This document shows positions 36,461 to 42,692 of a stretch of DNA of 64,000 nt, piece after piece. The number at the start of each line of letters is the position of its first letter. Position 1 is the stretch's first letter. The position numbers and the translations under genes were made by a program. The stretch is from Orenia metallireducens (GTDB lineage Bacteria > Bacillota > Halanaerobiia > Halobacteroidales > Halobacteroidaceae). Where the stretch lies: NCBI RefSeq assembly GCF_003001995.1, contig NZ_PVNB01000008.1:62001-126000 (forward strand). Direction: 5' to 3'. Under the pieces are notes generated by a model. It did not search any database, was not told the origin of the DNA, and saw only the letters and a list, made by a program, of their open reading frames with translations.

Positions 36461-36984
36461 GTTCTATAGGGAATAAAAGTAGAGTTAAAGAGCTATAGTT
36501 ATCCAGCTTTAGAAGGGAGCTTGGCTTAAGGTAAAGTTGGATAGCTCTACCATAGAATGTCGATAAAGATCAGAATATGCTTTTTTGATTTTTTTCTGTG
36601 CTATAATTTTTCAAAATATTTCAAGAAAAGTACTTTGTAGACAGTTAACTAATATTAGTTAATTGTCTATTGTCGATAACTAATATCAGTAATAAATTTA
36701 ACTATTGACAATAGAGCAATCTAAGTGTATTGAAAGTGATAAAGTTTTTAACTTATTTAAGTTAGCAAGTGTAGTTGAGAAGTTAAGATCGCTTTTTCTA
36801 AGAAATTTTGTGGATATAAGGAGTTTAGGACAGAAGCTTTTGAACTAATTAATTTAGTGTGAGTTTTTATTTTGAGTAATTTGTGTTGATTTGCTGTCAA
36901 ATTGATTTAGGTTTTGAAGTTAATATATCTATAGACACTGTAATTAAATTTCTAAAATATAAGAGACTATAAGGAGGACAAATT
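36461..36984. other. 524-base gap with palindromes before exbB
   Basis: No gene. AGACAGTTAACTAAT (36639-36653) and ATTAGTTAATTGTCT (36654-36668) form a 15-bp near-perfect palindrome; a second pair, ATTGTCGATAACTA and AACTATTGACAAT, follows up to about 36712. Before it, TATAAT occurs at 36602-36607 (CTATAATTTT) with no good -35. A plain AT-rich stretch of 250 bases leads to exbB with no other signal. Confidence 0.55.
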
Positions 36985-37608
36985 ATGTTGGAGATTTTGA
37001 AACAAGGTGGGGCTACGATCATACCTTTACTATTCTGCTCGGTAGTAAGTTTAGCTGTTGCTTTAGAGCGATTGATTTATTTAAAGAAGGCTAAAGGGAA
37101 TAACTTTAAACTTCTTGAGACAGTAAGGTTAAAGTTAAGTAAAGGTAAGATGGGTGAAGTGAAGAAGATTGCAATGAATGCCAAAGGACCAATAGCAGGA
37201 ATGTTAGAAGAGGGGATTAAGTATTATGGTCAAGGGAAAGAAGAGTTAAGAAGTAACTTGGAGTTGATTGGACAAAATGAGATCAAGAAATTAGAAAAGA
37301 GATTAGGAGTATTGGATTTAATCGCAACGATATCTCCATTACTAGGATTATTGGGTACAGTCTTGGGGATTATTGATAGCTTTAATATCTTAGCCGGTGC
37401 TCAAGGCATGGCGACACCAGCAGCTTTAAGTTCTGGAATCTCTGAAGCTTTAATTAGTACAGCAGTAGGACTAGTTGTGGCTATTCCTACGATGTTAGTC
37501 TATACTTACTTATTAGGTTTAGTACAGGATAGAATTGAGGATATCAATTATTGGTTTGTAGATTTGGTTGAAGCTTTAAGCCAAGGTGATAATAATGTTC
37601 AAATCTAA
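36985..37608 (+). CDS. exbB: ExbB/TolQ-family proton channel protein
   Basis: 207-aa inner-membrane protein that, with ExbD, uses the proton motive force to energise TonB. N-terminal TM near residues 10-28 (ATIIPLLFCSVVSLAVALER), then a cytoplasmic loop, then TMs at about 110-135 (LDLIATISPLLGLLGTVLGIIDSF) and 150-175 (SEALISTAVGLVVAIPTMLVY), the standard ExbB layout. ATG 36985 follows AAGGAGG. Overlaps exbD. The tonB-like gene next to exbD argues for ExbB over MotA or TolQ. Confidence 0.9.
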   Translation: MLEILKQGGATIIPLLFCSVVSLAVALERLIYLKKAKGNNFKLLETVRLKLSKGKMGEVKKIAMNAKGPIAGMLEEGIKYYGQGKEELRSNLELIGQNEIKKLEKRLGVLDLIATISPLLGLLGTVLGIIDSFNILAGAQGMATPAALSSGISEALISTAVGLVVAIPTMLVYTYLLGLVQDRIEDINYWFVDLVEALSQGDNNVQI

Positions 37609-38005
37609 TTTAAAAAAGAGACCTAACATTCAAATCTTACCTATGATTGATGTTATCTTCTTTTTGCTAGTCTTCTTTATGCTTTTTACAACCTTTAAGA
37701 CTACTCCAACGGGGTTGGAGATTAATTTACCTAAGGCTAAAACTGTTACTCAGCAGAATGAAGATATCAAATTAACTTTAAATATCGCTGAAAATGGTAA
37801 GATTTATTTAGATGGAGATCCTGTTGATGGTCAACTGTTAGAATTTGAAGTATCTAAAATTATTAAAAAATCACCTGATGCTATCTTCATCATCAAAGCT
37901 GATAAAGAGGTAAGGTATGAGATGATTATTAACGTAATGGATACAGTCCGTAATTCTGGTGGTTATAGATTAGCATTGGCAGCTAATAAAGAGAAATTGG
38001 ATTAG
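37595..38005 (+). CDS. exbD: ExbD/TolR-family protein
   Basis: 136-aa single-pass partner of ExbB. NIQILPMIDVIFFLLVFFML is the ExbD TM with the essential Asp (D19); FKTTPTGLEINLPKA and the periplasmic end with IFIIKADKEVRYEMIINVMD are typical. ATG 37595 was preferred over a GTG nine bases upstream because AAGGTGAT spans that GTG. The gene overlaps the end of exbB. Confidence 0.92.
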   Translation: MFKSNLKKRPNIQILPMIDVIFFLLVFFMLFTTFKTTPTGLEINLPKAKTVTQQNEDIKLTLNIAENGKIYLDGDPVDGQLLEFEVSKIIKKSPDAIFIIKADKEVRYEMIINVMDTVRNSGGYRLALAANKEKLD

Positions 38006-38014
38006 GTGATAACT

Positions 38015-39160
38015 ATGGCATATAAGAAGAAACGACAAGGAGAATTTCCTAGGTTCTTTATTATCTCTATGATTATACATGGGCTTCTGTTGTACATGCT
38101 ATCTTTGATTAATCCCGGTGTTCAACCTGCTTTTCAAAGTGATCCTATAAATTATACAAGTCAGTTAGATCTCCTATATTTAGAAGATGTAGCTGCTGAA
38201 AGTCAAGAGCTATCTAAAGAGTATCAAGATAATAGTCAATCGAAAAATAAGGAGCAAGTAGAAGAGGTTGAAGAAAAAAAGAAGGAAAAAGAGAAAGAAC
38301 CTCTAAAAGAAGTTACTGAAGACGTAAAAGAGGTCAAAGCTTCACCAAAAGAGGTAGAGGTTAAAGAGGTTGAAAAAGAAGAAGCTCCTGAAGTAAAAGA
38401 GGTTGCTAAAGCAGCAGAGGTTATTGAAAAAGAGGTTAATATAGAAGAGCAGATAGACCAAGGTAGTGAAGAGAAAGCTGAAAGTCCAAAAGTAGAGGAA
38501 AATAATGAAGTTGTAGTAGAGGATAATTCTAAGGAAGATATAATAGAGGAAATAGAAGAAGTTGCTAAGGAGCCTGTTGAAGAGGTTGCTCAAGAGGTTA
38601 AAGAAGATGTAGAAGGGGTAATTACTAGTAAGTCAAGTACTGAAGAGATTAAGGTTGCTCAAAAAGAGGTTGAGAAGAAGGAGGAAGTTGCAGCTAAGAA
38701 GGAGACGGTGAAAGAGGCTAAAACTGATAAATCTATCAAAAATGAAGAGATTAGTGAAGAAAGTACTAAAGAAATTAGCCAAGAGAATACTAATCAGAGT
38801 GAAGATCAACAAGAAGAGGTTAAAGAAGAAGCCAAAGTGCCACCACCACCTCCACCTAAGCCTAAGGATATGGTCATTAGTCAACCAAGACTTAGCTATC
38901 CCAAAAATGCACAGAATACAGAGATAGAGGGTGATGTTAAGTTATTGGTAAAGGTTAAAGCTAATGGAGAGATTGATCAAATAGAGGTGATTGAAGCTTC
39001 TTCCCATGAACAATTAAATAATTATGCTAAAAGAGCAGTCCAGTATGGGTGGAAATTTAAGGCTGATAAATCCGATTATGAAGTAATGCTAGTAGTTCAT
39101 TTCCGCTATAATAATGAAGAGCCAGTAAGTATAGACTATGTGGATTTATCCTTTGATTAG
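38015..39160 (+). CDS. tonB: TonB-like energy transducer with long Glu/Lys spacer
   Basis: 381-aa protein: TM anchor at about 14-31 (FFIISMIIHGLLLYMLSLI), a very long Glu/Lys/Val-rich region at about 55-275, a proline run VPPPPPPKPKD near 275-284, then a TonB C-terminal domain (ISQPRLSYPKNAQNTEIEGD, KVKANGEIDQIEVIEASSHE, NYAKRAVQYGWKF). The spacer, several times E. coli TonB's, is mostly E-K-V repeats and should form an extended or helical charged rod, long enough for a wide periplasm. ATG 38015 follows AGGTGAT. TonB normally powers outer-membrane receptors, but no receptor gene is in the window. Confidence 0.88.
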   Translation: MAYKKKRQGEFPRFFIISMIIHGLLLYMLSLINPGVQPAFQSDPINYTSQLDLLYLEDVAAESQELSKEYQDNSQSKNKEQVEEVEEKKKEKEKEPLKEVTEDVKEVKASPKEVEVKEVEKEEAPEVKEVAKAAEVIEKEVNIEEQIDQGSEEKAESPKVEENNEVVVEDNSKEDIIEEIEEVAKEPVEEVAQEVKEDVEGVITSKSSTEEIKVAQKEVEKKEEVAAKKETVKEAKTDKSIKNEEISEESTKEISQENTNQSEDQQEEVKEEAKVPPPPPPKPKDMVISQPRLSYPKNAQNTEIEGDVKLLVKVKANGEIDQIEVIEASSHEQLNNYAKRAVQYGWKFKADKSDYEVMLVVHFRYNNEEPVSIDYVDLSFD

Positions 39161-39177
39161 AAATGAGGTGTTAGAGG

Positions 39178-41172
39178 ATGAAGAAAAAATTAGGGATAAT
39201 TCTAATACTACTATTAGCAGTAATATCCTCTAAGGTGAGTGCTAAGGTAGATCAATATGGCAACTTGCAGTTGAAGAATGACTATATTTCTGTGATTGTC
39301 AATCAAAATGAGTTTAATAAAGGTAGATTTGCTGTTGATATTACAGGAGGAGATCCAATTAGAAGTGGTGATAATGGCAAGCCATTGCTTTATGGTCATC
39401 CTCACCCTTGGACCTCTTATACTACCTTTAGAATAGATAATAAAAACTATATCTTCGGTGGTAAGACTGATAAAAGGGCTGGTCGTAATGGAGAGTATGG
39501 TGAGTTAGTCCAAGAGCCTAGCCTTGACAATAATAGAATTATCACCACATATAGATTTAATAAGATAGTTGTCAGTCAAATTTTAAATTTTGTTAAGAGT
39601 AGTACTACAGGTCTGCCTGATACTTTACAAATAACCTATCGGGTGACAAATGAAGATGAAGTAGACCATAAAGTAGGTACTAGAATTATGATCGATACTA
39701 TGTTAGGTGAGAATGATGGTGCTCCCTTTAGGATTATCAATCAAGCAGTTACCAGTGATAGTTTATTTTTAAAGGATGACTTGCCAACTTTTTGGCAAGC
39801 CTTTGATGAATTAAGGGATCCAAAGGTAACTGCCCAAGGTACTATTAAAGGTCCTGGAGTGACCACTCCTGATGAGGTTTATTTTGCCGATTGGGGAAGT
39901 TTAGCAGATGGTCCTTGGGACTTTGATTTCAAATCTGGAGAAGAGTTCTTACGCAAAGGTGAGTTTGAATTGGACAGTGCTATGGCGCTATTCTGGCAGG
40001 AGAGTACCATTAAAGCAAAAGAGACTAAGACTTATGTAACAAATTATGGCTTAGGGGGTATTACTATTGTACCTGGACTGCTTTCCTTAGGTGTTACCTC
40101 ACCAGCACAAGTAGTAATGGACAACCCTAATAAGACTGTAGAGATTGTAGCTTATATTCAAAATACTGCTGAAATTACAGTAAAGGATGTAAAGGTTGAA
40201 TTAGTGCTTCCAGATAACTTAGAACCTATAGATAATTATAAGGTAAAAGAACTTGGCAACTTAGCTGCAGGGGAGACTGCACAGGTAATGTGGGAGGTTC
40301 GCCCTAAGCGATTGTTCCAGCAACAGGTAGAGTATACAGTCAAAGCAACTGCCAAAAATACCGATGATAACCAAGTAAGTAGAGGGTTGAAATTTGTTGG
40401 ACCACCTAAGTTATCTTTGAAATTACAGGCACCTAAGAGAATGGAGGCTGAGGATGATTCTTTAGTAGAGGATAGCTTCTATATTAAAGGTAACATTTCA
40501 AACTATGGAGCATCAACTGCTTATGGAATAGAGGCTTATTTGGCCTTACCACCTGGTTTAACTTTAAGTAAAGGTGATAAAGAAGAGAAATTTATAGGAT
40601 TTTTAGAACCTAATGAGAAGATTGAATTACTTTGGAAGGTTAAGCCCTTAGCTTTAGTTGATGGGAAGTTACCTTATTCAATAGAGTTAAGTAGTAGTAA
40701 TGCTCTTAGTGAAATAGCTAAAAATAGTATCCTGATTCCAAGTTTAAAGCCCAAAGCAAAGATAGAGATTCTACCTAAAAACGGTGGCTATCAGGTTGGT
40801 GATTATCTAACTGCCCAGATAAGGCTGAAGAATATAGCAGATTTCTATCGCTTAAAGACCAATATTAGTTATAATAAGGAGGTCTTAGAGGCTATTTATG
40901 TCTCCCGTGGAAATCTCTTTATCAATAATGGTAAGTTATTGAGTTGGAATTTACCTGAGGTTTCACAAGATGAAGGTATGATCAAAGGAATTTCTGCCTC
41001 TTTGGAGGATGAACAGGATATACAAGATGGTCTAGTAGCCAAGCTCCATTTTAAGATTAAGGTTTTAGGAAGCTTTGATTTATCTTTTGAAGACTTTATA
41101 GCTTATGATAAGAATAATAATCAACTAAAATTGGAGAAGGTTAATAATTTACTTAATATTAGGAGGAATTGA
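39178..41172 (+). CDS. Large exported protein with cohesin-like C-terminal domain
   Basis: 664 aa, starting with a signal peptide (MKKKLGIILILLLAVISSKV, cleavage probably after SAKA-like AK). Residues about 25-290 are an unrecognised beta-rich module (LKNDYISVIVNQNEFNKGRF, PLLYGHPHPWTSYTTFRID, ALFWQESTIKAKETKTYVTN). About 300-410 and 415-515 look like CARDB/DUF11-type immunoglobulin-like repeats (VKVELVLPDNLEPI; AYLALPPGLTLSKG). About 525-650 resembles a cohesin domain (YQVGDYLTAQIRLKNIADFY, GLVAKLHFKI). No LPXTG or TM, so periplasmic or surface-located. It lies between tonB and the SLH gene and may be the load or ligand-binding part of this system. Function unknown. Confidence 0.7.
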   Translation: MKKKLGIILILLLAVISSKVSAKVDQYGNLQLKNDYISVIVNQNEFNKGRFAVDITGGDPIRSGDNGKPLLYGHPHPWTSYTTFRIDNKNYIFGGKTDKRAGRNGEYGELVQEPSLDNNRIITTYRFNKIVVSQILNFVKSSTTGLPDTLQITYRVTNEDEVDHKVGTRIMIDTMLGENDGAPFRIINQAVTSDSLFLKDDLPTFWQAFDELRDPKVTAQGTIKGPGVTTPDEVYFADWGSLADGPWDFDFKSGEEFLRKGEFELDSAMALFWQESTIKAKETKTYVTNYGLGGITIVPGLLSLGVTSPAQVVMDNPNKTVEIVAYIQNTAEITVKDVKVELVLPDNLEPIDNYKVKELGNLAAGETAQVMWEVRPKRLFQQQVEYTVKATAKNTDDNQVSRGLKFVGPPKLSLKLQAPKRMEAEDDSLVEDSFYIKGNISNYGASTAYGIEAYLALPPGLTLSKGDKEEKFIGFLEPNEKIELLWKVKPLALVDGKLPYSIELSSSNALSEIAKNSILIPSLKPKAKIEILPKNGGYQVGDYLTAQIRLKNIADFYRLKTNISYNKEVLEAIYVSRGNLFINNGKLLSWNLPEVSQDEGMIKGISASLEDEQDIQDGLVAKLHFKIKVLGSFDLSFEDFIAYDKNNNQLKLEKVNNLLNIRRN

Positions 41173-41174
41173 TT

Positions 41175-41843
41175 ATGAAGGTAAGAAATAGTTTTATTAA
41201 CTTTATGCTCATCTTTATTTTTGTAGCTACGGCTGCACTCCCGGCTTTTGCTGCTACCAAAATTGATGATATCTCGAGTAGCCATTGGGCATATAAGAGT
41301 GTCAAGGAGCTAGTAGAGAAGGGCTATATGTCTTTATATGAAGGCAATGAATTTAAAGGTGAGAATAAGGTAAGTCGTTATGAACTTGCTAAGGTTATTG
41401 CTAAGATTTTAAATAACATTGAGCAAGGTCAAGTAGTACCAGAAAAAGGTGATGTGCTTACATTAAAGAACTTGGCTTCAGAGTTTCGTTCTGAGTTGGT
41501 AGAGGTTATCAGTCAGAATGAGGATTTAAAGGATGAGGTTAATAAGCTTGATAAAGAGCAGAAGGTTCTTAAAGAGGATGTAGTCAACACCAATTATAGA
41601 ATCAATCAATTGCAACAAGAGGTTGTTAAGTTACTAAAGAGTTTAAAAGAAGAGGCTGAAAGAACTAAAAAGTTAGAAAATAAGTTAAGCTCTTTAGAGC
41701 AGGATAATCAAGTTTTAAAGGAGCGATTAGCTAAGCTAGAAGAAGGCTCAGGAACTCAGCAAGAGATTGATAAATTAAAGAAGAATATTTATTGGTTAAC
41801 TGGTGGTTTAATAATTTCTCTATTATTATCAGTTAGTAACTAG
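41175..41843 (+). CDS. SLH - coiled coil - TM protein (Omp-alpha-like tether)
   Basis: 222 aa: signal peptide 1 to about 27 (ending ALPAFAA), one SLH domain at about 29-90 (SSHWAYKSVKELVEKGYM, KVSRYELAKVIAKIL), a coiled coil at about 105-195 (heptad-like NEDLKDEVNKLDKEQKVLK; LENKLSSLEQDNQVLKERL), and a C-terminal hydrophobic segment (YWLTGGLIISLLLSVSN). This order, SLH to bind secondary cell-wall polymer or peptidoglycan, coiled coil across the periplasm, then membrane insertion, is that of Thermotoga Omp-alpha and of the N-terminus of OmpM in diderm Firmicutes. It probably ties the outer membrane to the wall. ATG 41175 follows AGGAGG. Confidence 0.8.
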   Translation: MKVRNSFINFMLIFIFVATAALPAFAATKIDDISSSHWAYKSVKELVEKGYMSLYEGNEFKGENKVSRYELAKVIAKILNNIEQGQVVPEKGDVLTLKNLASEFRSELVEVISQNEDLKDEVNKLDKEQKVLKEDVVNTNYRINQLQQEVVKLLKSLKEEAERTKKLENKLSSLEQDNQVLKERLAKLEEGSGTQQEIDKLKKNIYWLTGGLIISLLLSVSN

Positions 41844-41858
41844 AAGGTGGGGGGTAGA

Positions 41859-42470
41859 ATGGAGAGAAAGAGTAGAGTTTTTTCAATTATTGCTTTTACT
41901 TTGGTATTTCTATTGATAATGCCTTGCCTTGCTTCTCTTTTTGCTCCTTTCTCATATCAGGCTTATGCAGCAGAGGTTTCTAGGGAAGATGCTTATAAAG
42001 GTTTAGCCTTTACAGTAGTCTTAATCTATCTTTTTAACAAGTTGTTTGATGATGATCAGACAACGGGAAGGTCAAGTTGGGGTAAAAGTAGAGAGCCTAT
42101 GAGCTATACTGATGATGAGTTGACTTGGTTAGCTAGAGCGGTTCATGCTGAAGCTAGAGGAGAGCCCTTTGAGGGGCAGGTAGCTGTAGCATCAGTTGTT
42201 CTTAATCGAGTGCAGAGTAATAAGTTTCCTAATACAATTTATAGTGTAATTCACCAGAAAAAGCAGTTTAGTTCTGTAGATGATGGGCAGATTTATCTAC
42301 CACCTAATGAATCATCATACAAGGCAGCTAAAGAGGCTTTTAGAGGAAGTGACCCAACTGATGGTGCTCTTTACTTCTATAATCCTATAACTGCTAATCC
42401 AGTAGGGAGGGCTTGGTTAGAAACTAGAGAGAAGACAATTCAAATTGGTAGTCATGTCTTTGCTAGGTAG
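41859..42470 (+). CDS. SleB-type cell wall hydrolase
   Basis: 203 aa with an N-terminal signal or anchor (RVFSIIAFTLVFLLIMPCLA, AYAAE) and a C-terminal Hydrolase_2/SleB domain at about 85-203: LARAVHAEARGEPFEGQVAV with the expected catalytic Glu, ASVVLNRVQSNKFPNTIYSV, FSSVDDGQIYLPP and GALYFYNP. Family members are spore-cortex lytic transglycosylases or vegetative wall hydrolases. The operon position after the TonB/SLH genes favours envelope remodelling over germination; both are possible in a sporeformer. ATG 41859 follows AAGGTGGGGGG. A perfect hairpin terminator follows. Confidence 0.85.
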   Translation: MERKSRVFSIIAFTLVFLLIMPCLASLFAPFSYQAYAAEVSREDAYKGLAFTVVLIYLFNKLFDDDQTTGRSSWGKSREPMSYTDDELTWLARAVHAEARGEPFEGQVAVASVVLNRVQSNKFPNTIYSVIHQKKQFSSVDDGQIYLPPNESSYKAAKEAFRGSDPTDGALYFYNPITANPVGRAWLETREKTIQIGSHVFAR

Positions 42471-42489
42471 AATTGAATATTGATATTAA

Positions 42490-42519
42490 AATAAGTCTCG
42501 GGAATTCCCGAGACTTATT
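42490..42519 (+). terminator. Intrinsic terminator of the exbB-to-sleB operon
   Basis: Perfect palindrome AATAAGTCTCGGGAA / TTCCCGAGACTTATT followed by TTTTC; it marks the end of the six-gene envelope operon. Confidence 0.93.
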
Positions 42520-42692
42520 TTTCTTTAAAGGAGGAATTTTAGGAATATATAATTTGAAATAATGATAGACGAAACCAATAATAGAAGCTATAAATAAAGG
42601 GAAAAATAAATCAGAGTAGAATTAATTTCTAAACAGCAAGTTTGAGTTTAGTTAATTATTGACTAGTATTAATTTATTTTCATAAAATCTTA

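Follow-up and report, generated by a model that had tools for sequence, protein, structure and literature searches.

What is a TonB-ExbBD motor used for when the operon that encodes it carries no TonB-dependent receptor? The question is raised by a locus of Orenia metallireducens (Halanaerobiia; 4.1-Mb genome), which lies in a stretch of 64,000 nucleotides (contig NZ_PVNB01000008.1, positions 62,001 to 126,000 of the forward strand) that is called the window here. Six near-abutting open reading frames (ORFs), all on the + strand, span positions 36985 to 42470 of the window and encode the motor subunits ExbB and ExbD, a TonB protein, an exported protein of 664 amino acids (p664), an SLH-coiled-coil protein, and a SleB-type hydrolase. 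They form a real, strongly conserved, and seemingly undescribed envelope module, a force transducer of the Ton/Tol kind that probably works like Tol-Pal. The reading developed below, that the operon is a dedicated proton-driven trans-envelope force transducer resembling Tol-Pal but with different outer parts, is one to which we give slightly better than even credence. The features of the locus are as follows.

36461..36984, +, leader or intergenic stretch of 524 bp between a PHP-domain gene and exbB, as read from the sequence
36985..37608, +, exbB, proton-channel motor subunit of the MotA/TolQ/ExbB family, 207 amino acids (Pfam MotA_ExbB, 1.3e-31)
37595..38005, +, exbD, motor subunit of the ExbD/TolR family, 136 amino acids (Pfam ExbD, 4.5e-31; likely start ATG at 37595)
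38015..39160, +, tonB, force transducer by family assignment (Pfam TonB_C, 4.2e-14; likely start ATG at 38015)
39178..41172, +, p664, exported protein of 664 amino acids (Pfam Cohesin, 2.5e-10; NPCBM_assoc, 3.7e-7; CARDB below threshold)
41175..41843, +, putative tether between wall and membrane, an SLH-coiled-coil protein of 222 amino acids that ends in a hydrophobic helix (Pfam SLH, 7e-9; likely start ATG at 41175)
41859..42470, +, SleB/CwlJ-type peptidoglycan hydrolase with a signal peptide, 203 amino acids (Pfam Hydrolase_2, 2.8e-34; likely start ATG at 41859)
42488..42521, +, terminator-like hairpin with a 15-bp stem and a U-rich arm at its end (RNA fold of -23.2 kcal/mol, z of -4.96 against shuffles)

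The initial annotation had described a six-gene unit ending in a strong terminator, and the ORFs, their Pfam families, and the hairpin bear this out; only 2 bp separate the p664 stop from the ATG of the SLH gene. Conservation was followed in two samples, one of 398 genomes from the phylum and one of 59 genomes from the class, 47 of which were of good quality. p664 is present in 57 of the 59 class genomes and in all 47 good-quality ones, at identities of 38 to 91%, and the order of the six genes is identical at all 57 class loci as far as the contigs reach. The sole insertion within the unit is ndk, by sequence a nucleoside diphosphate kinase gene, which separates sleB from the SLH gene in three families (loci L044-L051, L055, and L078-L083); the 450- to 1100-bp insert at this position was considered as a new partner and ruled out on that identification. 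A class draft, G056 (93% complete and 6% contaminated), contains neither p664 nor any TonB_C domain, through true loss or a gap.

Outside the class, the order exbB-exbD-tonB-p664-SLH recurs in 31 loci from 26 families of the phylum. At locus L118, the ORF at the tonB position is not recognized by the TonB profile. The sleB gene is missing from the 31 loci and joins the unit in the window's class alone, so its membership as originally proposed holds there and gives way to a five-gene core in the 26 other families. Because the flanking genes vary between families, the conservation is that of the block itself and not merely that of a longer stretch that includes it. Gene order, which had been named beforehand as one test of the original proposal, is conserved far past the Halanaerobiales.

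The distribution of the block follows that of the outer membrane. Full-length relatives were found with a p664 profile in 88 of the 398 phylum genomes, and Omp85/BamA was found in 101; full-length p664 is present in 87 of the 101 genomes with Omp85/BamA versus 1 of the 297 without it (Fisher p ~1e-71, a statistic that ignores kinship). Thirteen of the 14 Omp85-containing genomes without p664 belong to two families rich in TonB receptors, which are most likely Negativicutes, and the fourteenth is a draft that is 84% complete. A further 23 genomes contain pieces of p664 only (its N-domain or its Ig/cohesin part) within other proteins; the operon is absent from them, and Omp85 was found in 0 of the 23. 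The gene block is kept in nearly every sampled outer-membrane Firmicute except the probable Negativicutes.

The operon is independent of ordinary TonB receptors. Among the 47 good-quality class genomes, TonB_C is present in all 47 and the receptor Plug domain in 25, with Plug absent from the other 22; in the phylum sample, Plug is absent from 58 of the 88 p664 genomes. Class genomes without Plug have one TonB, that of the operon (one genome has an extra sub-threshold match), and in most class genomes where Plug is present an additional TonB lies near its gene; at the five class loci inspected, this TonB has an exbBD of its own. The operon is thus universal where TonB-dependent receptors are missing, which upholds the suggestion in the initial annotation of a dedicated TonB machine that does not serve nutrient uptake. 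The accompanying statement that no TonB-dependent receptor is present is true of the window but not of the genome, which encodes a single one elsewhere, beside a second TonB (locus L133, 6482-9433, contig C6) and with genes for an iron/B12-type ABC transporter further along. No exbB or exbD was found within the 18 kb read around this receptor, and its TonB may therefore borrow the motor encoded in the window.

The residues on which such a motor relies are nearly invariant. The channel threonines T125 and T159 of ExbB are kept in 99 to 100% of 84 relatives, and the pore aspartate D22 of ExbD is kept in 99% of 85. TonB consists of a transmembrane (TM) helix with an S-xxx-H motif, an acidic spacer of ~240 residues, and the TonB C-terminal domain, and both the S and the H of this motor-binding motif are kept in 93 to 95% of relatives. 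Judged from these residues, both the motor and its coupling to TonB look functional. In an ExbB tree, the operon proteins form a single clade that is separate from the receptor-linked ExbB proteins (support 100/97). TolQ/TolR models outscore ExbB/ExbD models for the operon motor, all under the cut-offs; a TolQ/TolR-like label was dropped because the receptor-linked motors of the class score alike. Two receptor-linked TonB proteins from one genus (L134, 8332-9423; L139, 8587-9711) have an N-terminal helix without the usual S-xxx-H.

The exported protein p664 comprises a signal peptide without a lipobox, a super-sandwich N-domain (residues 25 to 300), two Ig-like domains (301 to 525), and a cohesin-fold domain (530 to 664), with AlphaFold2 pLDDT values of 86.9 for the full-length protein and 92.5 for the N-domain alone. 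The cohesin-like and CARDB-like parts had been noticed originally, and the former is a clear match and the latter a sub-threshold one; the core of the protein, which had been overlooked, is the N-domain, as judged by conservation by domain and by fold match. It is the best conserved part (mean column identity of 72% versus 43% for the cohesin part), is without any Pfam match, and in the predicted structure adopts the galactose mutarotase-like/GH94 N-terminal super-sandwich fold (Z of 17.2 over 213 residues, 2.8 Å to 3mwx), at ~10% identity. Among 70 N-domains, S62, Q116, N140, D155, G159, D248, Y272, and G273 are invariant, and no His or Glu, the catalytic residues of galactose mutarotases, is invariant or near-invariant; a mutarotase-like enzyme was rejected for this reason. 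The C-terminal domain has a cohesin fold (Z of 16.6 over 127 residues, 2.0 Å to 2xdh). Dockerin_1 was found neither in the O. metallireducens genome nor in 55 of the 59 class genomes, and a cellulosome role was rejected on this ground. Residues 57 to 69, of low confidence in the full-length model, were considered as a conserved disordered binding loop and set aside, as they are better folded with a deeper alignment. A Foldseek search with full-length p664 returned integrin-type strings of beta-domains at a TM score of 0.2 and was uninformative.

Outside the operon, the N-domain opens an RHS-repeat protein (L120, 7812-14027), a triple-SLH surface protein (L122, 6911-13645), and a lipase/RCC1 protein (L121, 7833-12290), all in Omp85-negative genomes, which marks it as a mobile surface domain new to Pfam. 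It also occurs in the middle of a flagellin, flanked by Flagellin_N and Flagellin_C (L131, 5409-7010).

The SLH protein had been likened to a tether of the Omp-alpha kind, and a wall-binding tether resembling OmpM and Omp-alpha is supported. Its profile (A2) matches the OmpM1 stalk (6e-22) and SlpA (3e-21) in the PDB, and the residues that bind the wall ligand are kept (W38 in 39/39, Y40 in 37/39, and R68 in 38/39). Like OmpM of Negativicutes and SlpA of Deinococcus (PMC10628300, PMC9388160), it has one SLH motif ahead of a coiled-coil stalk and keeps the same ligand residues, but the operon protein lacks their beta-barrel. It has neither an OmpA domain nor a C-terminal barrel, and the coiled coil is followed by a short hydrophobic helix, of 15 to 18 residues in nearly all families including those outside the class, over total lengths of 213 to 907 amino acids. 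Omp-alpha of Thermotoga, with an SLH domain, a coiled-coil rod, and a C-terminal hydrophobic anchor, has the same parts by description; it is not known to lie beside a motor operon.

Among characterized systems, the closest in layout is Tol-Pal, whose operon has the order tolQ-tolR-tolA-tolB-pal. Role by role, both encode two motor subunits of one proton-driven family, a transducer built of a TM helix, a spacer, and a C-terminal domain, an exported adaptor that is soluble and rich in beta structure, and a peptidoglycan-binding protein that is anchored, and both have a conserved gene order and are near-universal in their lineages. The parts themselves differ: the C-terminal domain of the operon transducer belongs to the TonB family, p664 is a super-sandwich/Ig/cohesin protein that looks unrelated to the TolB propeller, the SLH-coiled-coil protein looks unrelated to Pal, an OmpA-domain lipoprotein, and in one class a SleB-type hydrolase is added. 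Having neither TolB nor Pal, the operon is not to be filed as Tol-Pal. It shares with the Ton system all three inner-membrane parts (ExbB, ExbD, and a TonB with S-xxx-H, spacer, and TonB_C) together with their key residues, and differs in its fixed exported partners and in the receptor, which is absent from the operon and from most carrier genomes; lacking a receptor with Plug and barrel, it is not to be filed as a Ton uptake system either. A precedent for ExbBD/TolQR-type motors that drive uncharacterized exported partners is provided by the vWA motor-driven transducers, which have another C-terminal domain and other partners than the operon (PMC12204202).

Tol-Pal has been reported solely from Gracilicutes (PMC12204202), and the TolB_N domain was found in 0 of the 398 phylum genomes, with positive controls. 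Taken with the shared order of roles, this makes a Tol-Pal-like cycle the simplest mechanism. ExbB and ExbD would form the inner-membrane motor, as family knowledge and their active-site residues suggest, on which TonB would dock through its S-xxx-H helix, with the long acidic spacer spanning the periplasm. Proton flow through ExbBD would move TonB, whose C-terminal domain would pull on p664, probably by strand addition. The fold of the p664 N-domain suggests that it binds glycan or protein, and the cohesin-fold end may hold a partner; the simplest candidate is the operon's own SLH-coiled-coil protein, as dockerins are missing from the genome. The SLH head and the C-terminal helix of that protein would link peptidoglycan to what is probably the outer membrane. 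By pulling on p664, the motor would put these tethers under load, release them, or shift them, which would let the outer membrane follow the wall during growth and division; in the window's class, the SleB-type hydrolase may cut the wall at that place. The constriction of the envelope, which the initial annotation had proposed, or the handling of tethers is the reading best supported by the layout, the phyletic pattern, and the known roles of the parts, from which we infer force transfer and constriction. A bolder form, to which we give somewhat less than an even chance, would see in the operon a full, non-homologous equivalent of Tol-Pal, with which the diderm Firmicutes other than Negativicutes would as a rule constrict the outer membrane and recycle tethers. 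In it, p664, as a new family of adaptors, and the SLH rod would take the places of TolB and Pal, and the machine would perhaps date from a common diderm ancestor of these lineages.

The exbB leader contains hairpin-forming repeats at ~36637-36705 (folding z of -3.8 for 36620-36720); neither these repeats, at the gathering threshold, nor the window as a whole matched an Rfam family. The sleB product matches the NCBIfam model spore_SleB at 1.4e-45, yet falls under the cut-off of that model.

Other readings assign the motor to different work. The surface assembly that the initial annotation offered as its alternative is one that we keep as improbable: the operon would energize the export, assembly, or display of a surface glycan, S-layer, or glycoprotein, and p664 would lie at the surface, where its carbohydrate-enzyme-like and cohesin-fold domains would organize the coat. 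The N-domain fold is common to glycan-handling proteins, the domain is present in surface proteins of the RHS, SLH, and flagellin types, and cohesin domains are known to serve cell-surface complexes, but p664 carries no outer-membrane export signal, the operon encodes no outer-membrane pore, surface coats vary whereas the operon is universal, and most of the class lacks dockerin. It is also quite unlikely that TonB energizes a process at a barrel without Plug (for instance, the OmpM porins or BamA/LptD), p664 serving as a periplasmic linker in uptake or outer-membrane biogenesis rather than in tether handling. The near-perfect co-occurrence with Omp85 would fit outer-membrane biogenesis as well, but a barrel gene is absent from the operon and from any conserved flank, and the Bam and Lpt systems of proteobacteria need no TonB.

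Very unlikely, in our judgment, is a housekeeping Ton system, in which TonB-ExbBD would energize one or more outer-membrane transporters whose genes lie elsewhere, leaving p664 and the SLH protein as accessories. Although the C-terminal domain of the operon TonB is of the TonB family, and the receptor-linked TonB of O. metallireducens may share the window's motor, this reading has to contend with the many carrier genomes that lack Plug, with the further TonB in most of the genomes that have it and the exbBD of its own at the five inspected loci, and with the split in ExbB trees between operon and receptor-linked kinds.

Several points weigh against the Tol-Pal-like reading itself. The association of p664 with Omp85 is one among related genomes and represents far fewer events than genomes, and the motor profiles give no preference for Tol over Ton. 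p664 has neither a clear TonB box nor anything that points to anchoring in the outer membrane, its N-domain is also found motor-free in surface proteins of Omp85-negative genomes, and the membrane into which the SLH protein inserts its short C-terminal helix could be the inner one. The genes, their conserved residues, their order, and their distribution, both with Omp85 and without receptors, are what the sequences show; the contacts, the localization of the tether's anchor, and the role in division are what we infer from them.

The co-occurrence of ExbB, ExbD, and TonB without receptors was remarked upon in the 2009 genome paper on H. orenii, where a different function was suggested (PMC2626281), and Antunes et al. 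(2016) discussed the SLH proteins of the outer-membrane cluster but not the Tol/Ton genes (PMC5007114). In a literature search, with subscription papers outside its reach, neither the five-gene unit nor p664 and its distribution was found described. According to a 2025 survey, the Negativicutes are the only diderm Firmicutes with Ton systems (PMC12204202), a placement that the distribution of the operon corrects. In this operon, moreover, a TonB protein has something other than a receptor as its conserved partner. Both the Terrabacteria and the diderm-monoderm transition raise the question of how bacteria that lack Tol-Pal, Pal, and Lpp coordinate the outer membrane with the wall, and a motor-driven module that is near-universal in one arm of the diderm Firmicutes, tracks the outer membrane, and brings its own wall tether provides named genes with which to test it.

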